Positions 2,098 through 27,937 of a stretch of 64,000 nucleotides of DNA are shown here, piece after piece. The stretch is from assembly GCA_021818335.1 (NCBI GenBank), contig JAKAEJ010000004.1, forward strand, positions 1 to 64,000, in the 5' to 3' direction. A program made the position numbers and the translations under genes. Every line of letters begins with the position of its first letter. Position 1 is the first letter of the stretch. The notes under the pieces were generated by a model, which was given only the letters and a program-made list of their open reading frames with translations, did no database searches and was not told the DNA's origin. Source of the DNA: Pseudomonadota bacterium. GTDB taxonomy: Bacteria > Pseudomonadota > Gammaproteobacteria > Xanthomonadales > Rhodanobacteraceae.

Positions 2098-2622
2098 CAT
2101 TTGCGGGATCCGCTGGGATCCGAGCGAGGCATCCCCTGTGCGTTGCCCGAAGGCAACGGCGTGGCGAAGTACAACGTGAACATCGCATCTGCTGCTACGC
2201 GTGCGGCAACCTGACAAAAGGATTGCGCTGTAATTACAGTTCTTGATTTCACCATGCTGGTCACAGTCGGTATGCTAAGCTCTCCGCGGCAAGCGACAAG
2301 GAATGAAAGTCGGCACAGCGGCATCCAAGTGACAGTCGCGCGGAGGGGAAGGAGATGTGTTCCGAGAGATTCATGCGCTCGGTGAGCGGACCGCAGCAGC
2401 AGGTCCAAGCGAGGTGGTGCAAACCCTTGAAGGTGCGCAGCAGCGGTCTTGCGCGCCGCAGCGCGGCAATGCTTGCGACATGATGGGGCCTCGGTTGCGT
2501 GCGATGGTACTTGCGAGATTTGGCCCGAGTCCGGGCGAGCCTCTGGCAGGCGCGCACAGTGCTGAGCGACGGGGCTAATATGCCTGCCGATGGACTGGCC
2601 GCCAGTCTCTCAGATGCTAGGG

Positions 2623-2650
2623 TTGACAATCGGCTCGATAACTTTCTGAT
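2623..2650 (+). promoter_or_regulatory. Possible sigma-70 promoter for the EXORDIUM-like gene
   Basis: A perfect TTGACA (2623-2628) is followed after 16 nt by TCTGAT (2645-2650), a 4-of-6 match to TATAAT. Transcription would start almost at the GGAGG ribosome site, so the leader would be very short. This is a pattern match only. Confidence 0.3.
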
Positions 2651-2669
2651 CACGATGGAGGACGAAAGT

Positions 2670-3983
2670 ATGAACAAGCTGTACAGGGGGGCGTTGGTTT
2701 GGGGTTTAATGCTGCTGGCGGGAGCCGCTTGCGCGTCGCCCCAATACGGACTCACAGCACCTTCTCAACAAACCTGGAAGCCTGGGCCGCAGGTCGAGCC
2801 GATCATGCCCAAAGGTTATTCGCTGACCAAAGGACATGTATTCGGTTTCGTTGCGCCTAACGTCCCATTGAGCGCGCAGAATTCACCGATGAATGACCCG
2901 TATGCGCCGCTGCAGATCGGCTACGAGAACATCTGGGGATGCGGCAATACTCTAGGGCAGTATTGCTTTACCAATGGAAGCTATTATGTGCCGCCGCAGC
3001 TCCAGCCATACGTGATGACGGGCATGCGCCGCATCTACATCATCTGGTACGGCAATTGGAGTGGGGATACGGCCACCACCATCATTCCACAGTTCATCAA
3101 CGCGCTCAACTACTCGCCGTATGAGAGCATGCTGACCACCTATACCTTCAACGGCATGCCGGTTTCGCCGGGCATTTTCGTCGCCGGCCAGTATACGGCG
3201 CCGATGACCTACGGCACGAATATCTCCGACGCAGACATTCAACTGATTGTGCAGAATGCGATCAGCGCGGGCGCGTTTCCTGTCGATCCGAACGGCATCT
3301 ATCTCGTGCTGACCGCAGCCAACGTGGCGGAGTCCGCAACTGGTAATCCGGCTAATGGTGGTGGCATGTGCACCGCCTACTGCGGCTGGCACAGCGACGG
3401 CTTGTATTCCGGCAGTGCCGACATCAAATATGCCTTCATCGGCAATGGCGAGTCCTGTGGCCAGGGCACCGTTGCTGGCCAGTCGGCACCAGGCTCATGG
3501 CCGGGCGCCTGCATCGCGCTGAAGTCAAACTATAACGGTCCATTCAGTCCGAGTGATTGGAACAGCCCCAACAGAAACCCCGGCGCGGACGGCATGGTCA
3601 GCGTCATCGCCCACGAGACTGAAGAGGCAGCGACCGACCCAGGCGTTAGTGGGGCTATACCAAGCGGCTATATCGGCTATGACTTCTTTGCTGACAACGG
3701 TTATGAAAACGGAGACCAGTGCGCATGGCGGTTTGGTGCCAATTCAGGCAACATGTTCATGAGCAACGGCAGCTATGCCAACATGGTCTTGGATGGCCGC
3801 ACGTACTTGATTCAGAAGAATGTCGTGTTGGCAAGCGCAACCGGCTATTCCAATTACGGCACCATGTCGAACGTTAATGGTCAGATCCTTCCGATCAACT
3901 GGGCGAACTGGTGGAACAACCACGCGACTGCGGTTGGCGGCAGTGCGGACTACTGCGGATTGGGCTTGAATAGCTGGCTCTGA
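2670..3983 (+). CDS. Secreted EXORDIUM/PHI-1-like protein (437 aa)
   Basis: The start ATG at 2670 has GGAGG eight bases upstream and begins a signal peptide (MNKLYRGALVW, hydrophobic core, cleavage near ACAS-P at about residue 24). The mature part follows the pattern of the plant phosphate-induced protein 1/EXORDIUM family (Pfam Phi_1): IYIIWYGNW with a following II..FI segment, an IYLVLTAANV strand, a Cys-containing MCTAYCGWH block, a Cys-containing GACIALK block, then DGMVSVIAHETEEAATDP, which matches the family's conserved region around its IAHELAE-type helix. The HETEE segment is reminiscent of a metal-site helix but is not a proven HExxH. In plants these are apoplastic proteins tied to growth and carbon status; the bacterial role is not known to me. 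It stands alone with its own terminator hairpin. Confidence 0.75.
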   Translation: MNKLYRGALVWGLMLLAGAACASPQYGLTAPSQQTWKPGPQVEPIMPKGYSLTKGHVFGFVAPNVPLSAQNSPMNDPYAPLQIGYENIWGCGNTLGQYCFTNGSYYVPPQLQPYVMTGMRRIYIIWYGNWSGDTATTIIPQFINALNYSPYESMLTTYTFNGMPVSPGIFVAGQYTAPMTYGTNISDADIQLIVQNAISAGAFPVDPNGIYLVLTAANVAESATGNPANGGGMCTAYCGWHSDGLYSGSADIKYAFIGNGESCGQGTVAGQSAPGSWPGACIALKSNYNGPFSPSDWNSPNRNPGADGMVSVIAHETEEAATDPGVSGAIPSGYIGYDFFADNGYENGDQCAWRFGANSGNMFMSNGSYANMVLDGRTYLIQKNVVLASATGYSNYGTMSNVNGQILPINWANWWNNHATAVGGSADYCGLGLNSWL

Positions 3984-5603: not shown

Positions 5604-6926
5604 ATGAGTACAACCCAGAACGTCGCCATCCGCGTGCATGGCGTGAGCAAGACTTATCGCCTCTGGACGACACCTGCGAGCCGATTGACGGTGCCCGCGG
5701 TCCAGCATCTATCCACGCGGCTGGCGGCACAGTGGCCGTGGTTGCAAAACAAGTTGGAGGCCTGGGTATCTCGCCGCATGTCGCTACACCATGCGTTGAC
5801 GGACGTGAGCTTCGAGGTGCCTCGTGGGAGTGCGCTCGGCGTCATTGGCCTGAATGGTGCGGGCAAGAGTACGTTGTTGCAAATTGTCGCTGGTGTGTTG
5901 CAGCCCAGTTACGGGACCGTGCAGATATCTGGCCGCGTAGCCGCCTTGCTCGAACTGGGCTCAGGGTTCAATCTGGAGATGACTGGGCGCGAGAACGTTC
6001 TTTTGAATGCGGCGGTGATTGGCATGCCACGTGCGCGTGCGAACGCACTGATGGAGCAGATCTTGGAATTTGCCGACATTGGTGACTATGTCGATCAGCC
6101 CGTCAAGACGTACAGCACGGGCATGGCGTTGCGGCTTGCTTTCGCCGTCCAGGTGCACATCGAACCGGAGGTGCTGATTGTTGACGAGGCACTAGCGGTG
6201 GGTGACGCGGCTTTTCAGGCACGCGCGATGGCGCGCATCGAACAGATTCTCGCACGTGGAACGACGTTGCTATTCGTAGGTCACGACCTGAATGCGGTGC
6301 GGGCATTTTGCCATCGGGCGATTCTTCTGGAAAAGGGACGTGTCGTGCTGAACGGTTCGCCCGAGGATGTCGTGACCGAGTATCTGTATCGTGTCCATCA
6401 ACAGGCACGAATCGAGACAACGGCGGCGCGTCGAAGTGCTGATCTTCAGCGACTTAACGGTGGCTACGGCCACGCAGGTACAGGTATCCGTCATGCGCGC
6501 ATTAATGGAGTCGAGCCACATGTATCGGTAATGTTCGATTCCCCCATTTCTCTGGATCTGATAGCGTGGTTCGCTGACCCCGTTGCCCACCCAACATTGA
6601 TTGTCGATGTCATGGATGGGAAGGGTTTGCAGGTCACCGGTCGGCGCATATCCCTGCCGCCAGGCGCCCGCGGGGCCGTCGAAGTGGGCATCCGCCTGAG
6701 GGCAACCCTTCAGAAGGGCGTTTACCGGCTGCGCCTGCGTCTGGTCGACGCACCCACGCTTGAGCAGACCGAGACTTTGTCGCGCCAGGAGGGACTTCTG
6801 TCCTTTGACGTCGTGGACGACAGTCGTGCCCAGTTCACTGGACTTTTTCCGCTGCCCATGGATATTGAAGTGCGGCCGCAAGTGGCGTCCGCGCTCTCCT
6901 CGAGCGCGCCCGGGCTGATCACATGA
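5604..6926 (+). CDS. wzt: Polysaccharide ABC exporter ATP-binding protein, Wzt-like (440 aa)
   Basis: Nucleotide-binding subunit of an ABC exporter for O-antigen or another surface polysaccharide. Walker A GLNGAGKST (about residues 82-90), signature YSTGMALRLAF (about 170-180), Walker B LIVDEALAVGD (191-201) and the H-loop GHDL (226-229) are all intact. Residues after about 260 form a C-terminal extension like the carbohydrate-binding domain of Wzt proteins, which reads the finished chain's terminus. The start at 5604 has AGGTG five bases upstream; the longer ORF reading is not convincing. The stop overlaps the next start as ATGA, so it heads the operon. The partner permease Wzm, normally adjacent, is not found anywhere in the window. 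Confidence 0.9.
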   Translation: MSTTQNVAIRVHGVSKTYRLWTTPASRLTVPAVQHLSTRLAAQWPWLQNKLEAWVSRRMSLHHALTDVSFEVPRGSALGVIGLNGAGKSTLLQIVAGVLQPSYGTVQISGRVAALLELGSGFNLEMTGRENVLLNAAVIGMPRARANALMEQILEFADIGDYVDQPVKTYSTGMALRLAFAVQVHIEPEVLIVDEALAVGDAAFQARAMARIEQILARGTTLLFVGHDLNAVRAFCHRAILLEKGRVVLNGSPEDVVTEYLYRVHQQARIETTAARRSADLQRLNGGYGHAGTGIRHARINGVEPHVSVMFDSPISLDLIAWFADPVAHPTLIVDVMDGKGLQVTGRRISLPPGARGAVEVGIRLRATLQKGVYRLRLRLVDAPTLEQTETLSRQEGLLSFDVVDDSRAQFTGLFPLPMDIEVRPQVASALSSSAPGLIT

Positions 6927-7906
6927 CCGATCGTCGCATGCTTTTCGTTCGAGACTTCGTCGCATATTCCGGTGGCCACGGCAAGGTCTTCGATTGGTTC
7001 CGGCATATTGAAAATCATCCTGACTGGACCTGTTCCGTTTGGCTGACACCACGCTCGCGGCGCACTTCGGACAATCCTTGGGTTGCGGCCGGTATCGAGA
7101 CATTGTCGGACGACCGGTGTCCGGTGGAAGCGTTCGACGCCCTGTTTCTGGCCGGCTTGGATTGGAATTGGGCGGAGCCCATTCAGGGACAGCCCGTGAT
7201 CAATTTAATCCAGTCAATGCGCCATGCTGATTCACACGATCCTCGTTACCCATTCTTGAGCCGGCCGGCAATCCGAATCGCGGTGAGCAAGGAAATCGCG
7301 CGAGCCATAACAAATGTTGGCTGCGCTTCCTCATCGGTCATCGTGATACCGGCGGCAGTCGACGTCCCCGAACTCCAAGCAGCGGCCGCGCGCGCGCGCG
7401 CTGTGCCGGGACACTCGCCGATCTTGGTGGATGCCACCAAAGACATTGCCCTTGGACTTGAAGTCACGGATCTACTGCGGAGGGCGGGTGTGGCTTGTAA
7501 TTGTCTTGTCGAACCACTGCCGCGCGAAGAATATCTGCGCCAACTGGCACGGGCCACCGTCGCGGTCGTGCTCCCGGCAATGACGGAGGGTTTCTATTTG
7601 CCAGCACTCGAGGCAATGGCCATGGGTGTGCCGGTCGTCAGCTGCGATGCGGGCGGCAATCGAGAATACCTGCGGCCGGATGTAAATGCTCTGGTTGCCG
7701 CGCGCGAACCGCAAGCACTGGCAAATGCCGCGGCAATGCTTGCCGACTGCAAAAGTTTGTGCGGGTCGCTGGTTGGAGCGGGCGTTGCAACGGCGGCGCG
7801 CTTCGATCTGCCGAACGAGCGCCATCTAGTGCATAAAATGCTCGACCGTATTCTGTCCATTGAGGACGTTCCGCAGCCATGCCACAAATCCGCGAGCTCG
7901 CACTGA
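6923..7906 (+). CDS. Glycosyltransferase, GT4-like (327 aa)
   Basis: A GT-B-fold glycosyltransferase, probably cytoplasmic and using a nucleotide sugar. The C-terminal half carries PAMTEGFYLPALEAMAMGVP followed by VVSCDAGGNREYL, the conserved E-x7-E donor-binding block of GT4 enzymes. The N-terminal half is short and starts with LFVRDFVAYSGGHGKVF, where a Gly-rich acceptor-side loop is expected. At 327 residues it is a little short for the family but not broken. It overlaps wzt by four bases and the following sulfotransferase gene by 28 bases, so translation is likely coupled. Sugar and linkage cannot be predicted. Confidence 0.8.
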   Translation: MTDRRMLFVRDFVAYSGGHGKVFDWFRHIENHPDWTCSVWLTPRSRRTSDNPWVAAGIETLSDDRCPVEAFDALFLAGLDWNWAEPIQGQPVINLIQSMRHADSHDPRYPFLSRPAIRIAVSKEIARAITNVGCASSSVIVIPAAVDVPELQAAAARARAVPGHSPILVDATKDIALGLEVTDLLRRAGVACNCLVEPLPREEYLRQLARATVAVVLPAMTEGFYLPALEAMAMGVPVVSCDAGGNREYLRPDVNALVAAREPQALANAAAMLADCKSLCGSLVGAGVATAARFDLPNERHLVHKMLDRILSIEDVPQPCHKSASSH

Positions 7907-8727
7907 CCGGGATCCCGCGCAGCGGTACGACGTTGGCATGCACCATCATCAACCGGCACCCACACGCTTTGGCGTTGGCCGAGCCGCTTGACCCGAATGC
8001 TTGGCCGATCGATTTCGATGCGCAACTCAGCGTGGTGAGAAGCGAGTTCATTTTCTTGCGTGAACACTGCCTCCGTACCGGCCGAGCGCCTAGCAGGCAG
8101 CGGAACGGCGTGATCGTCGACAATTTCTTCTACAGCGTCGGCACGGAACGGCGGTCTTACGCGGCGGATGTGGCTGAGGTTGTTATCGGTAAGCCTCTGC
8201 ACCGCGACTTCCTGCTGGTCATCAAGCAGAATGCGGCGTTCCTGGCTTTGCTGCAGCGGCTATCTGAGCAAATGCATGTGATAGCAGTCGTACGTCATCC
8301 GCTTGCGGTGCTCGCATCCTGGTTGAACGTCGACTTGCCGGTGGCGCATGGTCGATTGCCAATGGCCGAACGAATGGATTCGAACTTACGTGCAACGCTC
8401 GATGCCGAAAATGACGTGCGTAACAGGCAACTACACGTGTTGGATTGGTGTTACCGGCGGATCGGTAGCCTGCGGGGGCAGGTCACGGTGGTGAGCTACG
8501 AGTCGATTCTCGCATCCCATGGGCGAGCGTTGCTGGCCGCTTGTGGGTTGCCGACCGATGATTTGCGTACGCCCCCACCAGACTGGCTGCGAGCACCAGC
8601 AATGGCGCCATCTGCACAGATAGAAGCCTTTGCGCGGTCGCTGCAAGCGATGCCTGACAATGCCGGCTGGCGGGAATTTTATGGTGAATCCGATCTGCGC
8701 CGGTATGTGGAGAGGCCGGGACCATGA
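7879..8727 (+). CDS. Sulfotransferase (282 aa)
   Basis: Predicted PAPS-dependent sulfotransferase that moves a sulfuryl group to an acceptor, here probably a sugar hydroxyl of the glycan made by the locus. The 5'-phosphosulfate loop is GIPRSGTTLACTIINRHP near the N-terminus (residues 11-28), and the 3'-phosphate site is VVRHPLAVLASWL in the middle. There is no signal peptide or membrane helix, so it should act in the cytoplasm before export. It overlaps the GT4 gene upstream and the second sulfotransferase gene downstream by four bases. The acceptor is unknown. A sulfotransferase-fold protein without this activity is possible but less likely given the intact motifs. Confidence 0.8.
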   Translation: MPQIRELALTGIPRSGTTLACTIINRHPHALALAEPLDPNAWPIDFDAQLSVVRSEFIFLREHCLRTGRAPSRQRNGVIVDNFFYSVGTERRSYAADVAEVVIGKPLHRDFLLVIKQNAAFLALLQRLSEQMHVIAVVRHPLAVLASWLNVDLPVAHGRLPMAERMDSNLRATLDAENDVRNRQLHVLDWCYRRIGSLRGQVTVVSYESILASHGRALLAACGLPTDDLRTPPPDWLRAPAMAPSAQIEAFARSLQAMPDNAGWREFYGESDLRRYVERPGP

Positions 8728-9482
8728 GTGGATCGCCGCGCATCGCCTTTATGATCGGTGGAGTTCAAAAGGCCGGCACCACGGCGTTGTATGAGGCGTT
8801 GCGCTTGCATCCACGGCTGCGCCTTCCATTCGCCAAGGAAGCGCACGTTTTCGATGCTGCAGACTATGATGATCTTGCTGCGCCAGATGATATTGACCGG
8901 CGATTTCAAGCTTTGTTCGCCGAGCCGTTCAGTGATGGTTTCCTACATGGCGATGCCACGCCAGTGACGCTGTTCCATCCGCTGGCAGTCGCGCGCGCAT
9001 GGCGTTACAACGCTGGAATGCGCTGGGTGATCCTACTGCGCGATCCGGAGGCGCGTGCGCGTTCGCAGTACGCCATGGAGCGCGCGCGGGGGGATGAGCG
9101 TCTGTCGTTTTGGAACGCGTTGCTCGTTGAGCCGTTGCGGTTGAGGCGGGCCGGATCTGACTGGAGTGAACCTTCAGCGTGGCGCCACCATAGCTATCTC
9201 GCGCGAGGGCGCTATTTGCCACAACTCCAACGCCTCTATGAGCTGTTCCCCGCAGCCCAGATTCTTTTGCTGACTCATGCCGAGTGGCGCGACCATCCCT
9301 CAGAGACGCTGCAGAGGATATACCGGCATTTGCAGATCGAAGATCCAACCCATCCCCCACCTGTTACCACGACGCCAGTTCAGCCACTCGGTAGCAGCAC
9401 CAGGCTCCTGCCGGTGCTGCGCCTTTGGTCGGTTTGGCAGCGTTGGCGCGTGCGGCGGCACTTTGGAATAGATCCACGCTGA
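8724..9482 (+). CDS. Sulfotransferase, heparan-sulfate (NDST/HS3ST)-like type (252 aa)
   Basis: A second, clearly different sulfotransferase. GVQKAGTTALYEALRLHP at residues 13-30 is the phosphosulfate loop in the form seen in heparan-sulfate N- and 3-O-sulfotransferases and their bacterial relatives (G-x-x-K-x-G-T-T). ILLRDPEARARSQYAMERARG is the 3'-phosphate site with the RDP..R..S pattern. A late HHSYLARGRYLPQLQRLYELF segment also fits this subfamily. It is coupled to the previous gene by an ATGA overlap, and 41 nt separate it from the metB-like gene. Two unlike sulfotransferases in series suggest sulfation at two positions or of two residues. Confidence 0.82.
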   Translation: MSGSPRIAFMIGGVQKAGTTALYEALRLHPRLRLPFAKEAHVFDAADYDDLAAPDDIDRRFQALFAEPFSDGFLHGDATPVTLFHPLAVARAWRYNAGMRWVILLRDPEARARSQYAMERARGDERLSFWNALLVEPLRLRRAGSDWSEPSAWRHHSYLARGRYLPQLQRLYELFPAAQILLLTHAEWRDHPSETLQRIYRHLQIEDPTHPPPVTTTPVQPLGSSTRLLPVLRLWSVWQRWRVRRHFGIDPR

Positions 9483-9523
9483 ACAATTAAACTAGGGTCC
9501 ATTCCTTGCGTTGGGAGATTGCG

Positions 9524-10690
9524 TTGGCCACTAGCACCCGAAATCTTGGATTGGCGCTCGCCACGCGAGCCATTCACGCTGGACAAATGCCCGACCCTTC
9601 CACGGGTGCCATCATGACGCCGATTTACGCGACGTCTACCTACGTGCAGGAAAGCCCAGGCAAGCATAAGGGTTACGAATATTCGCGCACGCAGAATCCC
9701 ACCCGGGCAGCTTACGAGCGCTGCGTAGCGGACCTCGAGGGAGGTGTGGCGGGTTTTGCGTTTGCTTCGGGGTTGGCTGCAGCCAGCACGGTGTTGGAAA
9801 TGCTCGATACCGGCAGCCATGTCATCGCCATGGATGATTTGTACGGTGGGACGTTCCGACTTTTCGAGGGAGTCCGTCGGCGTAGCGCTGGCCTCGACTT
9901 TGCGTTTGTTGATCTGAATGACGCCGATGCACTGAAGTTTGCGCTTAAGCCGAATACCAGGATGATCTGGGTAGAAACCCCAACCAATCCGATGCTCAAG
10001 CTGGTCGACCTGGAGCGGATCGCCAAGTTCGCACATAAGTTTGGCTTGATCTTGGCCGTGGATAACACGTTCAGTTCGCCAATCCTTCAGCGGCCACTTG
10101 AGTACGGGGCCGATCTGGTGCTGCATTCGGCAACCAAATACCTCAATGGTCATTCAGATATGGTTGGCGGTATCGTTGTCGCCGGCAATCGGGAACTGGC
10201 CGGACGTATGGCGTTCTTGCAGAATTCCGTGGGTGCCGTTGCCGGCCCGTTTGATAGCTTTCTCGCGTTGCGCGGCCTCAAGACGCTGCACTTGCGAGTG
10301 CGCGCGCATTGCGAAAACGCCCTGGAGTTGGCGCGATGGCTGGAGCGCCATCCAGCCATCGAGCGCGTGATCTATCCCGGCCTAAGGAGCCACCCGCAGT
10401 ATTTGCTAGCCAGACGCCAGATGCAGGGCTCCGGTGGCATCGTCGGCATTGAGGTGAAGGGTGGACTTAAGAAGGCTCGCCGGATGCTGGAGCGTTGTCA
10501 TCTTTTCGCGCTGGCGGAATCCCTTGGTGGTGTCGAAAGCCTGATTGAGCATCCTGCAACCATGACCCACGCATCCATTCCGCCGGCGCGGCGCAAACGG
10601 CTGGGGATCAGCGACGGGTTGGTCCGATTGTCGGTGGGGGTGGAGGCGATTGAAGACTTGCGCACAGAACTGACCAGAGCGTTGGTATGA
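9524..10690 (+). CDS. metB: Cystathionine gamma-synthase/gamma-lyase-type PLP enzyme (388 aa)
   Basis: A Cys/Met-metabolism PLP enzyme of the MetB/MetC family. [11 protein letters not shown], the PLP-stacking YGGTFR region, and the Schiff-base lysine K205 in [17 protein letters not shown] are all present, as is [17 protein letters not shown] near the C-terminus. I chose the TTG at 9524 because GGGAG precedes it by six bases; the ORF track uses a TTG 18 bases upstream. It resembles the cystathionine gamma-lyase-like protein of Xanthomonas. In that genus metB borders the O-antigen locus, so the gene is more likely a housekeeping anchor than a sulfation enzyme. Synthase and lyase cannot be told apart by eye. 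It ends in an ATGA overlap with the fusion gene. Confidence 0.85.
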
Positions 10691-13600
10691 GCGAGCGCGC
10701 AATGACGCGCTCGAGGTCAACTGGCGTGACATCTGGCAAATCCGGTTTGCGACGAGCGATTCTGGTGTTGGGGATGCATCGCAGTGGCACTTCTGCTGTC
10801 ACGCGGGTGCTTAATTTGCTTGGCGCAGAAATCGGGTTGCGATTGATGGAGCCTGCGCCCGACAATCCAACGGGCTTTTGGGAACATCTCGACGCGGTCA
10901 CGATTCATGATCGACTACTTGGTGATCTGGGGCGCAGCTGGGATGACTTTCGACCCCTGCCCGGGGGCTGGTTGCACTCCGCTGCGGCAGGACATGCCTA
11001 TGAGCAAATCCTGAATCTGGTCCGGAGCGATTTTTCCGATGCGCCCCTCTGGGCGATCAAGGACCCGCGATTGTGTGTGTTTCTGCCGTTGTGGGAGCGT
11101 GCACTGCGCAGTCTGGGCATCGTCCCCTGCCCGATCATTGTGCTGCGCGACCCAGCAGAGGTGGCGGATTCGCTGAAGCGGCGAAATGCTATTCCCGCTG
11201 CACTGGGCGAGGCTCTATGGTGCCGTTACACGGTCGAGGCCCTACGAGCCAGCGAGCGCCATGCGCGCGCAGGACTTCGTTTCAGGGACTTGTTACAAGA
11301 CTGGCGATCGGAGATGCATCGTCTCGATCTGGCCCTCGGTCTGGAGCTGGACTGGAGCGAACAGGCCACTGGCTGCGTGGATGACTTTCTGCACCCAATG
11401 GGCGCCGCGCCGGAACCAGCCTCCTTGGTCACGTCACCAGCCAGCGATCGTCTGCGTGGGTTACTCAATTCTGGAGCCCTGGATCTTCGGCTGCTGGCGG
11501 ATGCGGCGGATGCTGTCCTCGAGCATTTCGTGGGCGAGTCGCTTGCCTGTGCGGAGGCCGAATACTTGCGGGTCGAGCGAACTCGTTACGAAGAGGCAGC
11601 AAGTCGTGCGAAGGATCGCTTGGATGAACTGGTGCAGTGGGCCGAAGGGTGCGATCGGGATTTGGAGATCGCCCGTACGCGGCTGGTTGAATTGCAAGAC
11701 GAGCACGAACGCGTCGCTCGGTGGGGCAAGACGCTGGAAAGCGATCTACTCAGGGAGAGGGCAGATCGCGATACGCTGGTCGCGAGCTTGAGGTCGGAGC
11801 AAGAACGATTACGTGCACAAGCTGAGCGCGTTCGCGGTGAACTAATGACCGTTCAACGTGCACTTGCGCAAATCACCTCGTCACGATCATGGCGAATGAC
11901 TAGGCCGCTTAGAGTGATAGCTGGCGTCTTGCGTAGCGATGGGGATTACCTTCGCCGAGGTTTTGCAAACTGGCGGCGACGCCTTGGTGAGTCCGAAGTT
12001 CCGCTTGTGGACATGGGACAGCGGACGGCGTCGGGAACGAGGCTCAGGTCGGGTTCCCCAACTGCCTTGACAGCATCCGCCGACAACCCGGGCAGGGTAC
12101 CGGAGAAGCCCGAGTCGCCCGACATTTCCATGCTGGGATTCCCTTCTTACCACCAGATTAAAGTCTCGATAATCATCCCGACCTACGGCAATTTGCCGGT
12201 CACGGCTGCGTGCCTGAAGTCGATCGCAGCCAATCCACCGCAGATGCCCTATGAGGTCATCGTGGTCGAAGATGCGTCGGGCGATTCCGCAATCGATGTG
12301 CTTCGTCAGGTGGAGGGGCTTCGATTTGAGTTCAACCCAGAAAATCTCGGGTTCGTGCGTTCCTGCAATCGCGCCGCAGGTTTGGCGCGCGGCGAATACC
12401 TGCATTTCCTTAACAACGATACTGAGGTAACGCCCGGATGGCTGGATTCGCTATTGGGTGTTTTCCAAAGCAACGACGACTGCGGGTTGGCAGGTTCAAA
12501 ACTGGTTTATGCAGATGGCCGCCTGCAAGAGGCAGGCGGCATTGTGTTTCAGGACGGGAGTGCCTGGAACTACGGGCGTTTCGATGACCCAGGGCGCAGT
12601 GTCTATAATTTTCTGCGCGAGGTCGACTATGTATCCGGCGCTTCGCTGCTCATCCGAAGGGCATTATTTGAGGAATTAGGCCGGTTCGACGACCTCTATG
12701 CGCCAGCGTACTATGAGGATACGGATCTAGCCTTCAAAGTGCGCGCTGCTGGATACAGGGTTTACTACCAACCAGAGTCACTGGTTGTGCATCACGAGGG
12801 CGTTTCTCACGGCACCGACACAGGCAGCGGCATCAAGTCATACCAGATGCGCAACCAACGCATCTTTCGCGAACGTTGGCAGGCGACATTGCGGGATGAT
12901 CATTATCCGAACGCCGAGAATATTTTTCGCGCGCGCGGCCATGATAAAAAATCACGTCTCGCGCTTATCGTCGATCATTATGTCCCGCAGCCCGACAAGG
13001 ATGCGGGATCGCGGTCGATGCTGCACATTATCATGCGTTTTCTTGAACATGGTTACCGAGTTAAATTTTGGCCTGAGAACAATTATTACGACCCAACTTA
13101 CTCGCGGTGCCTAGAGCAATTAGGTGTGGAGGTCATGTACGGTAATGAGTATGTTGGCAGATTCGGTTCCTGGATCCAGGATCATGGCGCTGAATTCAAC
13201 GTGGTCTTATTAAGTCGTCCCGACGTGAGTGATAAGATAATCAAAGATATCCGTGCGTCCTGCCATGCGCCAATACTTTATTACGGCCATGACATCCATC
13301 ATCTACGCATCAAGGAACAACTGCGAGTCTCACCCACGCACGAATTGCGCCAACAAGAAAAGTCAATCAAGACGCTGGAAGAGAGGGTCTGGCGGAGCGT
13401 GGACGCCATATTCTATCCGTCAGACACTGAAGTCATGTATGTACAAGAGTGGGTCACGGAAAATGCGCAAAGGGCAACGGCTCACCTCATGCGGCTATAT
13501 GCGTACGACCCGGTCCACATAATGGACATCAATGACCTTGGTTCGAGAAATAGTCTAATTTTTGTTGCTGGTTTTTCACATCCGCCGAACATTGACGGCG

Positions 13601-14082
13601 CCTGTTGGTTTGCTCGAAGTGTGTTGCCGATTATAAGAAATCAAAGGCCCGATATCTGTCTCGACTTGGTTGGCTCGAATCCACCGGAACAGGTTCTTGC
13701 ACTATCTAGCGAGCATGTCAGAGTAATCGGCTTCGTCACCGATGATGAACTCGCACGCTGGTATGCAAGGGCGCGTGTTGCTGTCGCGCCGTTGAGGTTC
13801 GGTGCGGGTGTAAAGGGAAAGGTCATCGAGGCGATGGCATATGGAGTTCCTTGCGTTACGACTTCCATCGGTGCGCAGGGTCTTCAGCATTGTGATGCGC
13901 TATTCATTTCGGATGTTCCTGAAACGTATGCAAAAGCTGTCCTTGATTTGATGAGCAGTGACGATCTGTGGAAGGAGCATTCCCGACGCGGACAGCATTT
14001 CATTGCGCAACATTTCACCGCGGATGCGCAGTGGGGTGAGCTGGAAAAGGCGATTGTTGCGCACACCAAGCCCGTGGCGTAA
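10687..14082 (+). CDS. Sulfotransferase-GT2-GT4 trifunctional fusion (1131 aa)
   Basis: Three catalytic modules in one chain. Residues about 15-260 are sulfotransferase-like: the loop [21 protein letters not shown] is an apparent phosphosulfate site and [17 protein letters not shown] the 3'-phosphate site. About 285-400 is charged and heptad-like, probably coiled coil, ending in the [12 protein letters not shown] linker common in large glycosyltransferases. About 490-740 is a GT2 domain ([43 protein letters not shown]). About 755-1131 is GT-B/GT4-like, starting [18 protein letters not shown] and ending with [18 protein letters not shown]. The start overlaps the metB stop (ATGA). The last third is visibly richer in A and T than the first, suggesting separate origins. 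Predicted to build and sulfate the same glycan in the cytoplasm. Confidence 0.85.
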
Positions 14083-17494: not shown

Positions 17495-17809
17495 AATAAG
17501 TTCGCGAGCCTTAGAGGTGTTGACGTTGTTTCGAGGCTTGGCAGTGACTGAAACGTGATATGGTTAGTGTAAGGGTTAGAAGCGCTTTAAGGGTTGGTCA
17601 CTTGCCAACCCTGCGTCCAGCAGCTGCCGCACGGCCAATCTGAAGGGAGTGGGGCCGGGGGACTGCTGTTTGCGCTTGCGTTGCCCAAGGTGGTCAGAAT
17701 TCGAGGGTCAGCAGTTGGGCAAAGGGAGTGGGGCCTGCTTGTGCATGTGTAGCGTGATGTGTGCGAGATTTAACAATGGCGTTGTCGTTGGGCCCGCTTG
17801 CACGTCCGT
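17495..17809. other. Divergent intergenic region with small repeats
   Basis: About 315 bases between two divergent glycan genes. It contains a 7-bp hairpin (GGGTTGG / CCAACCC, 17591-17611) and a 14-nt direct repeat AAGGGAGTGGGGCC at 17643 and 17722. It should hold promoters for both directions, but no convincing -35/-10 pair stands out. Confidence 0.5.
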
Positions 17810-19939
17810 ATGGATTTGATTCGCATGCGCATGTTTCGGAAGCTTTATCAGGCCCTGCCATTCGCTGAGTTCAGGCTGCGCGTGAAGCGTTGGTTGACTG
17901 CGCGTTCCAGGCTTGCGCGCCGGCTTGTGCTGGAAGCCCAGAGGGACGCTGCGTGCGAGCTGGAACAGACCGGTCAGGACGCTTTGGCCCCTTCCACCTG
18001 CGTCGATCACGCCGTGCGAGTGCTGTCGCGTTTGCATGCGGGAGGGCGTAGCGTTGGCTATGTCGGGGCTTCGCCAACGGGCGCGGCTGTGCGATCACCT
18101 GTCCGCCTCATCGCATTCTACCTGCCTCAGTATCATCGTGTAGCCGAAAATGATGCTTGGTGGGGCGCCGGATTCACCGAATGGACGCTCGTGGCGCGTG
18201 CCTTGCCTAAGGTCGAGGGTCAGATACAGCCCAAATTGCCGGGTGAGCTCGGCTTTTACGACCTGAGTCGTCCCGATGTAATTCGCGTGCAATCGCAGTT
18301 GGCGCGGAGCTATGGCTTGCACGGATTCTGCTTTTACTTCTACTGGTTCGGTGGACGCCGAATGCTGGAACAGCCGCTGCTGAATTTTTTGAGTGACCAA
18401 AGCAATGACATGCCTTTCTGTCTGTGCTGGGCGAATGAGCCATGGTCACGCCGCTGGGATGGGCGAGATGACGATGTGTTAATCGCACAACGGCACAGTG
18501 CGGAAGACGACCTGGAGTTCATTGATTACGTGGCCCTTTACTTGCGCGATCCACGGTCGATCAAGGTGGATGGAAAGCCAGTGCTGGTGGTGTACCGTCC
18601 GAGCTTGTTCCCCGATCCGAAGGCAACCGCTGCGCGATGGCGTGAGCGTTGCCGCGAGCTGGGAATTGGCGAGATCCATCTCGCATTCACGCTGGCGTTT
18701 GACAGTTTTGTGCCACGCGATATCGGTTTCGATGCAGCAATTGAGTTTCCGCCGAACAATGTCTCGGCCCGCGATGTTAGCGGGGAGGTCCGGCGGCTTG
18801 ATCCGAACTTTGCCGGGCGCATTTTCGACTGGCGTAGTCTGGCCACGGCGCCGCCGATGCTTCCCGATGACGCCGGTACGTTGCATCGCGGGGTCTGTCC
18901 GGCGTGGGACAACGAGCCGCGCAGGGCCGGTCGCGGCCGCGTGTTCCTGTACGCCGCGCCGCGCCGCTATCGCGATTGGCTAGTGGCTGCGATGCATGAC
19001 ACGCTTCGCCGTTCCTCGAATCGCGATTCGTCCCTTCTGTTTATCAACGCATGGAACGAATGGTCGGAGGGGGCCTATCTCGAGCCCGATGCGCAACTCG
19101 GATACGCGTGGCTTGAAGCCACACGCGCGGCCCAGCGGATCGTCGCGGCGAATGGGGTTGACAAAGCGCCGTCGCGACGCATGCGACCCCTTTGTGTTGT
19201 GCTCCATGCTTTTTATCCCGAACTACTCGACGAGTTCCTTCTACCGTTGTGTTCCATGGGCGTGCCGCACCGCTTGGTGTTGAGTACTGTCGACAGCTGC
19301 GAAAAAGCGGTGCGCGCGCGAATCGCCTCACTCGGCATGACCGCGGAGATCCACGTTTTCGAGAACCGCGGTCGCGACGTCCTACCTTTTTTGCAGCTGG
19401 CTTCGCGCTTGCTTGACGAGGACGAAGAATTGGTCCTGAAATTGCATACCAAGCGTTCGTTGCATCGTGGGGACGGCGAATTGTGGCGGCGGGATTTGCT
19501 GGCCAAGTTGTTGGCTCCGGATTCGTGCGGACGAATCCTCCAGGCATTTCAGGCGCAACCCGACTTGGGCATGGTGGTGCCCGATGGTCACTTGTTGAGT
19601 CTTCGCGCTTATTGGGGTGCGAACGCTAGCAACGTTCAGGCGCTATGCCGAAGAATGGGTCTCGGCGAAATTGATGTTGGTGCTGGCGCCTTTCCGGCAG
19701 GCTCGATGTTTTACGCACGCCTTGAGGCGCTGCGCCCGCTGCTTGATACACCCTTGGAGATTCTCGAGTTCGAGCCAGAAACTGGGCAGCGCGATGGTAC
19801 CCTGGCACATGGGATCGAACGCGTGCTAGGTGAATGCGTGCAAGCCGCTGGAATGCGTGTGACAACCGATAGGGCCCTCGACACAGACGGACGGGTTGTC
19901 ATCAACGATTATCCTTTCGCGGCGCGGTCTCGCGAATAG
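17810..19939 (+). CDS. WbsX-like and RgpF-like glycan biosynthesis fusion (709 aa)
   Basis: Residues about 95-450 match the WbsX family of polysaccharide enzymes (GH99-like): RLIAFYLPQYH, NDAWWGAGFTEW, FCFYFYWFGGRRMLE, CWANEPWSRRWDG and NAWNEWSEGAYLEPD are all family landmarks. Residues about 465-700 match the rhamnan-synthesis protein F domain (RgpF): VLHAFYPELLDEFL, FENRGRDVLPFL and LKLHTKRS. The latter domain occurs in rhamnose-polymer assembly and fits the GDP-D-rhamnose genes at the end of the locus. No signal peptide is seen, so it should be cytoplasmic. Several in-frame starts lie between 17798 and 17831 without a good ribosome site; I took the first ATG. Confidence 0.82.
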   Translation: MDLIRMRMFRKLYQALPFAEFRLRVKRWLTARSRLARRLVLEAQRDAACELEQTGQDALAPSTCVDHAVRVLSRLHAGGRSVGYVGASPTGAAVRSPVRLIAFYLPQYHRVAENDAWWGAGFTEWTLVARALPKVEGQIQPKLPGELGFYDLSRPDVIRVQSQLARSYGLHGFCFYFYWFGGRRMLEQPLLNFLSDQSNDMPFCLCWANEPWSRRWDGRDDDVLIAQRHSAEDDLEFIDYVALYLRDPRSIKVDGKPVLVVYRPSLFPDPKATAARWRERCRELGIGEIHLAFTLAFDSFVPRDIGFDAAIEFPPNNVSARDVSGEVRRLDPNFAGRIFDWRSLATAPPMLPDDAGTLHRGVCPAWDNEPRRAGRGRVFLYAAPRRYRDWLVAAMHDTLRRSSNRDSSLLFINAWNEWSEGAYLEPDAQLGYAWLEATRAAQRIVAANGVDKAPSRRMRPLCVVLHAFYPELLDEFLLPLCSMGVPHRLVLSTVDSCEKAVRARIASLGMTAEIHVFENRGRDVLPFLQLASRLLDEDEELVLKLHTKRSLHRGDGELWRRDLLAKLLAPDSCGRILQAFQAQPDLGMVVPDGHLLSLRAYWGANASNVQALCRRMGLGEIDVGAGAFPAGSMFYARLEALRPLLDTPLEILEFEPETGQRDGTLAHGIERVLGECVQAAGMRVTTDRALDTDGRVVINDYPFAARSRE

Positions 19940-25601: not shown

Positions 25602-26016
25602 CGTGGGCGTCACCTCAACGATAGAGGGTGCGTTGCTGAGCCATGGCGCACTGGCCGTGTCGGAGTCTGGATCATTTCGTCAAGTACAGAATAGCCAGAA
25701 CACAGGCCAATTCCTAAAAGTAGTCCGATTGCCCAGTGGCAGCTGGCGCGCGAGCTGATCGGAACAAATCGATCATGATCCCATTGGGAATCAGCTTGCG
25801 TCGAAATCAATGGATAAGCTTAGCTGGGATCGGGGATCCTCCCGTCGACGCCAATCGTCCTTGTAGGGATTCGGATGGACCAACACTGAATCACGGGGCC
25901 CGCGCAAGCGTTATGGCCACTTGCGTCGCGAGTGGACGATTGGCTCGAGCTCGACGTTACTCCCCGCGCAGTCAGTTGTGCCAACATTCAACCGTCGAAC
26001 ACCACGGAAGCATCAC
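25602..26016. other. Divergent sqdB-gmd intergenic region
   Basis: About 415 bases expected to hold promoters for sqdB (minus) and gmd (plus). A GGAAG ribosome site for gmd lies at 26006-26010. I see no convincing operator, attenuator or hairpin. Confidence 0.5.
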
Positions 26017-27048
26017 GTGAAGACTGCAGTCATCACCGGCATCACCGGTCAGGATGGTGCCTATCTAGCGCAGTTGCTACTTGGCAAGGGCTACAAGGTG
26101 TTTGGTACCTATCGCCGCACCAGTTCGGTCAATCAGTGGCGCATCCAGGAACTTGGCATTGCTGAGCACCCCAGGCTGGAGCTGGTCGAGTACGACCTGA
26201 CCGATCAGGGCACCAGCATTCGCCTGATCGAGCAGGCGAAACCGGACGAGGTCTACAACCTCGCTGCCCAGAGTTTTGTAGGCGTGTCGTTCGATCAGCC
26301 GGCAACAACCGCGCAGATTACCGGCGTGGGCGCTCTTTTCTTGCTGGAAGCGATCCGCATGGTCAATCCCGGGATTCGCTATTACCAGGCATCGACATCA
26401 GAGATGTTCGGAAAGGTCCAAGCTGTCCCGCAGGGTGAAGGTACGCCATTCTGGCCCCGGAGCCCTTACGGCGTGGCAAAACTCTATGCCCACTGGATGA
26501 CCGTCAATTATCGTGAGAGCTACTTGATTTTCGGCGCAAGTGGCATCCTGTTCAATCACGAATCACCGCTCCGTGGCCGAGAATTTGTAACCCGGAAGAT
26601 CACCGATGGCGCAGCGCGTATTGCGCGCGGCAAGCTAGAAGTCCTGGAGCTGGGCAATTTGGATGCGCGGCGCGACTGGGGTTTCGCGCCGGAATATGTC
26701 GAAGGCATGTGGCGGATGCTTCAAGCTGAACATCCGGATAGCTACGTGCTTGCCACAGGTCGAACGGAGTCCGTGCGCGACTTCGTCAACCTAGCGTTTT
26801 CGGCGGTGGATCTGCCGCTGCGCTGGCAAGGGCAGGGCGTCGATGAGGTGGGCGTTGATGCGCGTGGCCAGGTGCGGGTTCGGGTCAATCCGCGTTACTA
26901 CCGGCCTGCCGAAGTGGACTTGCTGATTGGCGATCCATCCAAGGCGCGCCGAGAGCTGGGCTGGGAGGCGCGTACCTCGCTCGAAGAATTGTGCCGATTG
27001 ATGGTGCAGGCCGACCTAGCGCGTGTGGAGCATGACCGCTCGTTCTGA
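26017..27048 (+). CDS. gmd: GDP-mannose 4,6-dehydratase (343 aa)
   Basis: Converts GDP-D-mannose to GDP-4-dehydro-6-deoxy-D-mannose, the precursor of GDP-D-rhamnose or GDP-L-fucose. Visible landmarks are the Rossmann loop [19 protein letters not shown], the [14 protein letters not shown] segment, [15 protein letters not shown], the catalytic STSEMFG and YGVAK motifs, [16 protein letters not shown], and the [15 protein letters not shown] block. All fit Gmd rather than dTDP-glucose dehydratase. The start is GTG at 26017 with GGAAG six bases upstream; the upstream ORF extension has no support. It overlaps the next gene, the reductase rmd, so the two form one operon making one sugar nucleotide. 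Confidence 0.93.
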
Positions 27049-27937
27049 TCAACCGCTCGCTCTGGTGACCGGTGCGCGCGGATTCACGGGTCGTTACGTG
27101 CGTGCCGAACTGGAGCGATCGGGCTATCGGGTGATGGGTGTCGTCCAGGAGGTCGCCCTGAACGATGAGATCACGCTGGACTTGCGTGATCGAGCTGTCG
27201 TCCTCGGTACATTGGCGCCAATGGCGCCTGATGTGGTGGTGCACCTCGCGGGAATCCCTCTTGTGGCGCATGGGGACGCCGCGGCGCTTTATCAGACTAA
27301 TCTTGTGGCCACACGAAATCTTCTGGAGGCGCTTGCGCAATGCTCGGGGCCACCGCGTTCAGTGCTGCTGGCCAGCAGTGGTAACGTCTACGGGAACATT
27401 GGCGCGGAAGTGCTCGACGAGTCGATGGCCCCAAGGCCAGCCAATGACTACGCCGTCAGCAAGCTGGCCATGGAGCACATGGCGAGGCTTTGGATGGAAC
27501 GACTGCCGATCGTTATCGCGAGACCTTTCAATTACACGGGTGTTGGGCAGAGCGAGGATTTCCTGCTGCCGAAGATCGTGGGTCATTTTCGCCGTGGTGC
27601 GCGCGTGATCGAGCTTGGCAATACCCAAGTCGCACGTGACTTCAGCGATGTGCGCGAGGTTGCCCGCTGCTATCGCGGGCTGTTAGAAGTGCCAGCGGCC
27701 GCAGGTCGCACGTTCAACGTGTGTTCGGGCAGCGTCACGGTGCTGGACGACGTTCTGGACATGATGCGTGCGTTGGCGGGCTATGCCATCGAAGTGCGTA
27801 TCAATCCGGCGTTCGTTCGTGGCCAGGAGATTGCCCGCCTGCGTGGCAGCAACGCACTCCTGCATGGCGTGCTTGGCGATGCACCAGGCACCATTCCCCT
27901 TGAAGCAACCCTGCGCTGGATGTACACGTCAATTTGA
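27032..27937 (+). CDS. rmd: GDP-6-deoxy-D-mannose reductase, Rmd-like (301 aa)
   Basis: Short-chain-dehydrogenase-fold enzyme expected to reduce the Gmd product to GDP-D-rhamnose. The N-terminus has [25 protein letters not shown], the SSGNVYG serine block and the catalytic YAVSK motif, then [10 protein letters not shown] and [14 protein letters not shown]. Assignment to Rmd rests on overlap with gmd (17 bases) and on the short, 4-reductase-like sequence. GDP-fucose synthase (fcl) is the main alternative, but its additional epimerase signature is not evident. I took the ATG at 27032; a GTG at 27023 is also in frame. The RgpF-domain protein in the locus supports a rhamnose product. Confidence 0.8.

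Follow-up and report, generated by a model that had tools for sequence, protein, structure and literature searches.

A recurrent trio of glycosyltransferase and sulfotransferase genes as a candidate module for sulfating an ABC-exported surface polysaccharide in Rhodanobacteraceae

In polymerase-terminator systems with ATP-binding cassette (ABC) export, such as those of E. coli O9a (WbdD) and Klebsiella O12 (WbbB), O4 and O7, the Wzt binding domains let only capped chains through, chain capping is the task of the N-terminal module of Klebsiella O12 WbbB, and coiled coils serve as rulers (PMC11231755). A related arrangement is found in the wbsalmo locus of Aeromonas salmonicida, where Wzt, the sulfotransferase-domain protein ORF19 and WbbB occur in series with surface-layer (S-layer) genes alongside (PMC4483657). 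Here we analyzed a 64,000-nucleotide stretch of a Rhodanobacteraceae bacterium (assembly GCA_021818335.1, contig JAKAEJ010000004.1; hereafter the window), in which wzt is followed by a gene for a family 4 glycosyltransferase (GT4) and by two sulfotransferase genes, ST1 and ST2. On balance, we favor the view that these genes form a conserved module for the sulfation of a surface polysaccharide that leaves the cell by ABC export, with the chain end as the favored position of the sulfate. Labels beginning with G, L and C denote genomes, loci and contigs, respectively.

The window locus resembles the polymerase-terminator systems in three respects: Wzt has a C-terminal sugar-binding domain, the modification genes adjoin wzt, and a multi-module protein combines an N-terminal modifying domain with a coiled coil and two glycosyltransferase modules. 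Its modifying domains, however, are sulfotransferases and not a methyltransferase, kinase or 3-deoxy-D-manno-oct-2-ulosonic acid (Kdo) transferase, and termination and export control at this locus would be assigned by analogy. The locus shares with wbsalmo the series of Wzt, sulfotransferase and WbbB-type protein as well as a nearby surface-protein gene, with the S-layer genes at a similar place, but wbsalmo has one small sulfotransferase where the window has two. As in the metB-etfA locus of Xanthomonas and Stenotrophomonas, variable lipopolysaccharide (LPS) genes occur with wzt beside metB; in the window, by contrast, wzm is not beside wzt, and a sulfotransferase is not mentioned for the metB-etfA locus in PMC524487 and PMC2238763. 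The cluster for the sulfated capsule of Vibrio sp. KMM 8419 is similar in combining ABC export, sulfotransferases and cysDNC. It differs in that its product is a capsule of known repeat-unit structure, and the accessible part of the report does not describe the trio of GT4, ST1 and ST2.

All genes of the locus lie on the + strand. The wzt gene (5604–6926, with the start set at MSTTQNV) encodes an ABC-2 polysaccharide exporter ATPase with a C-terminal sugar-binding domain (PF00005, 72 bits; Wzt_C PF14524, 26.8 bits). Its stop codon shares the sequence ATGA at 6923 with the start of the GT4 gene (6923–7906; PF13692, 54.4 bits), the 3′ end of which overlaps ST1 (7879–8727) by 28 bases. ST1 and ST2 (8724–9482) share the four bases ATGA at 8724–8727. 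In the series wzt, GT4, ST1 and ST2 each gene thus overlaps its successor, and metB and the gene for the multi-module fusion protein follow. Both sulfotransferase frames, of 282 and 252 amino acids, are intact, in agreement with the original prediction of adjacent, overlapping sulfotransferase genes. A genome of the same genus (G005, loci L055/L069) carries an orthologous locus with the entire gene order kept and with protein identities, from wzt to the fusion protein, of 87, 66, 67, 76, 84 and 48%. The comparison with G005 gave a nonsynonymous divergence (dN) of 0.22 and a synonymous divergence (dS) of 1.00 for ST1, and 0.15 and 1.33 for ST2, with both dS values close to saturation. Judged from the sequences, both reading frames are under purifying selection.

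Pfam assigned ST1 to Sulfotransfer_3 (PF13469, 30.9 bits against a cut-off of 27) and ST2 to Sulfotransfer_1 (PF00685, 34.2 bits against a cut-off of 22), which bears out the expectation that the loops GIPRSGTT and GVQKAGTT belong to two unlike sulfotransferases. Since hhalign aligned the two profiles only in the loop region and with a probability of 7.5%, ST1 and ST2 are not recent duplicates. In ST1 the 5′-phosphosulfate loop (7909–7932) occupies residues 11–18 within LTGIPRSGTTL, and Arg14, Glu35, Arg139 and Ser147 are invariant across 36 homologs. With the phosphosulfate loop, the Arg/Ser 3′-phosphate site and the Glu base kept, ST1 is predicted to be a P-loop sulfotransferase dependent on 3′-phosphoadenosine 5′-phosphosulfate (PAPS). 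Only 16 of the 36 homologs matched PF13469 at E ≤ 1e-3. Searches of NCBIfam and PHROGs found no family for ST1 or ST2, a phmmer search of ST1 against PDB gave no meaningful match, and a scan of IMG/VR with ST1 found no viral relatives. The best solved folds for the ST1 structure model (pLDDT 92.7) were the tyrosylprotein sulfotransferases TPST2 and TPST1, with E 6e-5, TM 0.41–0.44 and 14–15% identity. The loop GxPRSGTTL is common to ST1 and these enzymes, and Glu35, judged by spacing, presumably takes the position of the catalytic Glu99 of TPST2. The remainder of ST1 is dissimilar, with a sequence match limited to the loop, and its overall fold and sequence similarity is too low to place ST1 among the tyrosylprotein sulfotransferases. 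On the Pfam match, the homolog alignment and the model, ST1 appears to represent a divergent Sulfotransfer_3-like clade, for which we found no description and which is loosely closest to the tyrosylprotein sulfotransferases.

ST2 carries its phosphosulfate loop (8760–8783) at residues 13–20 within GGVQKAGTTAL, and Lys16, Glu39, His41, Arg106 and Ser114 are invariant across 28 homologs. The ST2 profile matched the bacterial structure 3rnl with E 1e-42, human 3-OSTs with about 1e-28 and NDST1 with 5e-24. Foldseek gave the ST2 model (pLDDT 91.0) a TM of 0.76 to 3rnl and of 0.69–0.73 to the 3-OSTs. The loop, 3′-phosphate site, base and fold are kept, and ST2 too is predicted to be a P-loop PAPS-dependent sulfotransferase. 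It had originally been described as having the form of animal heparan sulfate sulfotransferases. This description holds in part: the fold, the P-loop Lys and the catalytic Glu and His are common to ST2, the heparan sulfate 3-O- and N-sulfotransferases and 3rnl. However, as bacterial 3rnl is the nearest solved structure, closer in sequence and in fold than the heparan sulfate enzymes, the form extends beyond the heparan sulfate enzymes, and we place ST2 in a Sulfotransfer_1 branch that is NDST/3-OST-like and also includes bacterial 3rnl-like proteins. For the residues important for the activity of 3-OST-3 (PMC8341778), alignments showed that Lys162, Glu184, His186 and Asp189 are kept in ST2 as Lys16, Glu39, His41 and Asp44, whereas Arg166, Lys215 and Gln255 are replaced by Thr20, Ala78 and Met118. 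On account of these replacements at heparan-binding positions, heparan chemistry was rejected for ST2. Its mechanism is probably like that of the NDST/3-OST class, yet we do not class it as a heparan enzyme. The fold and the catalytic Glu39/His41 would also be expected of a true heparan or heparosan sulfotransferase that makes a glycosaminoglycan-like surface polymer. We consider such an enzyme highly improbable here, given the three replaced residues and the nearby sugar-nucleotide genes, which are of the GDP-mannose type (GMD at 25921–27048 and an epimerase at 27023–27937) and not a heparosan set.

To assess how widespread the gene pair is, we searched 84,980 species genomes once with the ST1 profile; the counts refer to the two peptide patterns used. 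ST1 relatives were detected at 42 loci. On the same strand, 29 of these have an ST2 relative no more than 3 kb away and 26 have a GT4 homolog no more than 2.5 kb away; for the 36 loci with sufficient flank the numbers were 25 and 23. There was no ST2-like gene elsewhere in the 42 ST1 loci. The carriers include Lysobacter, Luteimonas, Pseudoxanthomonas, Arenimonas, a Rhodanobacteraceae metagenome-assembled genome (MAG), Cellvibrio and uncultured Pseudomonadales; the complete module is present in Luteimonas marina (L075), Pseudoxanthomonas broegbernensis (L078) and Lysobacter ruishenii (L071). Nearly all Xanthomonadales-type loci display the order wzt-GT4-ST1-ST2 (at L074 wzt is on the opposite strand), and some loci are shuffled to ST1-GT4-ST2. 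A start with a 4-base overlap of the ST1 stop (ATGA, GTGA or TTGA) is available to ST2 in 12 of 20 loci checked. Two uncultured Pseudomonadales encode ST1 and ST2 as one protein of 602 residues (L088, 7983–9791; L108, 7995–9803), and in a MAG labelled Desulfatirhabdium an ST1 relative is fused to another Sulfotransfer_1 domain (L089, 7971–9806). The distances of ST1 and ST2 between loci correlate (r 0.79, n 24, 0/2000 permutations). The GT4-ST1-ST2 trio is therefore recurrent across many bacteria and not a local oddity. We are fairly confident that the substrate of the ST1/ST2 pair is an exported surface glycan. A different target, be it protein tyrosine, a lipid-linked intermediate, the LPS core or a small molecule, could be proposed from the tyrosylprotein sulfotransferases as closest solved folds to ST1 and from the varied acceptors of PF13469 enzymes, NodH among them (PMC11625862). 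This is improbable, as the fold similarity of ST1 is low and its gene is coupled, across many genera, to those for GT4 and Wzt and to polysaccharide genes.

The C-terminal domain of Wzt (6462–6923, + strand) is of the carbohydrate-binding module type and rich in arginine. It matched PF14524 with 26.8–29 bits (29.0 bits for the domain segment), just under the cut-off of 30.4, and the L071 copy reached 30.5. Arg62, 89, 91, 93, 108 and 122 (domain numbering) are invariant in an alignment of 16 loci, and the domain is kept from Xanthomonadales to Cellvibrio with 42–62% identity to the window, the G005 copy aside. A profile of this domain subtype found it in 6 of the 398 Xanthomonadales genomes. 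All six have ST2 beside wzt and five have the entire trio; G209 possesses wzt and ST2 only, without GT4 and ST1, and its domain is the most divergent, at 125 bits where the others score 210–225. As to the membrane partner of Wzt, none of seven ABC-2 membrane genes elsewhere in the assembly resembles the wzm of L070, and the partner was therefore not identified in the host genome.

Downstream of ST2, the metB-type gene (9506–10690, + strand) encodes a pyridoxal phosphate-dependent enzyme of the cystathionine gamma-synthase/lyase family (PF01053, 494.9 bits). It lies among LPS-type genes and occurs also in L069, L070, L080, L136 and L059. In xanthomonads metB borders the variable LPS locus (PMC524487, PMC2238763), and we regard it as a marker of this locus, a housekeeping gene outside the sulfation step. 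Its stop is overlapped by the start of the gene for the fusion protein (10687–14082, + strand), which has 1131 residues. This protein comprises a sulfotransferase-like N-terminal domain (10750–11400, loop GMHRSGTS), a predicted coiled coil at residues 285–406 (11539–11904), a GT2 module (12166–12672; PF00535, 76.6 bits) and a GT4 module (13549–13956; PF13692, 91.6 bits). The coiled coil, called by a simple heptad script and not by a calibrated predictor, spans about 122 residues, whereas in shuffled sequences the script flagged about 48. Homologs at L069, L070, L071, L075 and L078 have the same layout, and by its sequence the protein, with its sulfotransferase-like domain, coiled coil, GT2 and GT4 in series, is laid out like Klebsiella WbbB. 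The assignment of the first domain draws on its alignment, on Pfam matches of its homologs and on hhalign. It scored 17.4–23 bits against Sulfotransfer_3, with the window copy below the cut-off of 27; 9 of 11 homologs matched that family at E ≤ 0.01, the P-loop and the positions of Glu66, Arg154 and Ser162 are invariant among them, and hhalign against the ST1 profile gave 73%. A phmmer search of the domain against PDB returned no meaningful match. The original count of three such domains in a span of about 4 kb thus holds, with ST1 and ST2 well founded and the third, in the fusion protein, less certain.

Three unlike sulfotransferase domains close together could also mean patterned sulfation, as the original prediction suggested, in which ST1, ST2 and the fusion domain each sulfate another position in every repeat unit to give a polyanionic polysaccharide. 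A precedent is the ABC-exported capsule of a marine Vibrio, which has sulfated repeats and a cluster bearing cysDNC and several sulfotransferases (PMC11641403), and some GT4-ST1-ST2 loci are without a nearby wzt. Whether a repeat or a terminal position is sulfated is not readable from sequence, but the rare Wzt domain occurs together with ST2, an association that would not follow from sulfation of the repeats by itself. A terminal mark accounts for the link to Wzt and its binding domain no less well than patterning does, and we treat patterned sulfation, the main rival reading, as possible but rather unlikely.

For the sulfation of an exported surface polysaccharide with the chain end as preferred site, the following scheme can be drawn. 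ST1 and ST2 would be a cytoplasmic PAPS-dependent pair that works with the neighboring GT4 on a polysaccharide exported by Wzm/Wzt, most likely the LPS O-polysaccharide. GT4 would add one sugar, and each sulfotransferase may sulfate a different position of this sugar or of its neighbor, leaving a sulfated anionic group at or near the non-reducing chain end. The arginine-rich Wzt domain could then read the sulfated end as an export signal, much as E. coli and Klebsiella Wzt read methyl, phosphomethyl or Kdo caps, and the fusion protein would act as a length-setting polymerase. Gene integrity, conservation, overlap, predicted folds and neighborhood are the observed features that support the scheme; the acceptor, the sulfate position and the role in export are inferred. 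That the sulfate is terminal and read by Wzt is plausible, and we hold it less firmly than the action of the pair on a surface glycan. Still more tentative is the full picture of a sulfate-capped O-polysaccharide, in which the sulfotransferases terminate the chain and the Wzt domain exports only sulfated ends. Full-text searches of the open-access literature found no sulfotransferases linked to O-polysaccharide termination or to Wzt binding domains.

Several points weigh against the proposed sulfation module. The claims on sulfation are drawn from genes and models, not from chemistry. Four of the six Wzt-domain hits are genomes that served to build the profile, so only G036 and G209 are independent cases. 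The correlation of ST1 and ST2 distances can also stem from shared ancestry, and several marine and Pseudomonadales GT4-ST1-ST2 loci have no wzt within the 8-kb flanks, a span that would miss distant wzt genes. No sulfate was reported for the A. salmonicida O-antigen (PMC4483657), although a single terminal group could escape notice. Finally, APS kinase, CysD and CysH were not found in the host assembly (G000; 2.19 Mb, 77% complete), and neither was a manC ortholog.

The last of these points bears on the PAPS supply, for which the original prediction had looked to the rest of the genome; formally the outcome is negative. APS kinase is present in 10 of 12 genomes of the same genus, and PAPS synthesis was also found in G036. 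The gene order in the genus is manC-cysD-cysNC (L064–L067), which brings GDP-mannose synthesis beside PAPS synthesis, in some cases with sapC on the opposite side. This linkage suggests that PAPS supply and the synthesis of a GDP-mannose-type polysaccharide go together in the genus. Since sapC-manC-cysD-cysNC form one contiguous block in relatives and G000 is without all four, an assembly gap is the likeliest cause of the absence. Real loss is also possible because G002, of the same genus and 89% complete, likewise showed no manC-cysD-cysNC block. Together, the missing genes in G000 and in G002 would fit a module that is idle in the host because PAPS cannot be made. We judge this to be improbable, given the incomplete assembly, the frequency of APS kinase in the genus, the contiguity of the missing block, the purifying selection on both sulfotransferase genes and the contig of G005, which carries the orthologous locus and ends inside cysD, next to manC. 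Further sulfotransferases are encoded in G000, mostly as long open frames of 450–610 amino acids: contig C17 (8.7 kb) carries three, and C31, C56 and C84 carry one apiece.

The surroundings of the locus contain additional genes. Upstream of wzt, the frame at 327–2027 has a signal-peptide-like start and no Pfam family; its homologs lie upstream of wzt at L069, L070, L071, L073, L075, L078, L080, L106 and even L136, a minimal wzt-ST2 locus, and its product might sit on the cell surface, bound to the polysaccharide of the operon. The gene at 2499–3983 encodes a Phi_1 (phosphate-induced protein 1) domain, and a homolog precedes ST2 at L059; the Phi_1 family is known mainly from plants. At 17798–19939 the same cluster encodes a two-domain WbsX-RgpF glycosyltransferase. 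Genes for a GHMP kinase, a SIS isomerase and a nucleotidyltransferase lie 3′ of the fusion gene at L055 (11906–14279), L070 (10338–12893) and L071 (12924–15347) and possibly represent a GDP-heptose pathway. In genome G011 the contig ends of C1 and C2 (L059 and L060) carry the same region, with ST2 intact in one and split in two in the other, which would be explained either by overlapping contigs or by recent duplication of the region.

Little is understood of sulfated polysaccharides on bacterial surfaces, and the role of each sulfotransferase is almost never known. GT4, ST1 and ST2 together with a matching exporter domain constitute a testable unit, which would define an undescribed sulfotransferase clade, that of ST1, and the trio would serve as a genome marker for sulfated O-polysaccharides. 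If the sulfate is indeed terminal, it would add a new chemical type to the export marks methyl, phosphomethyl and Kdo.

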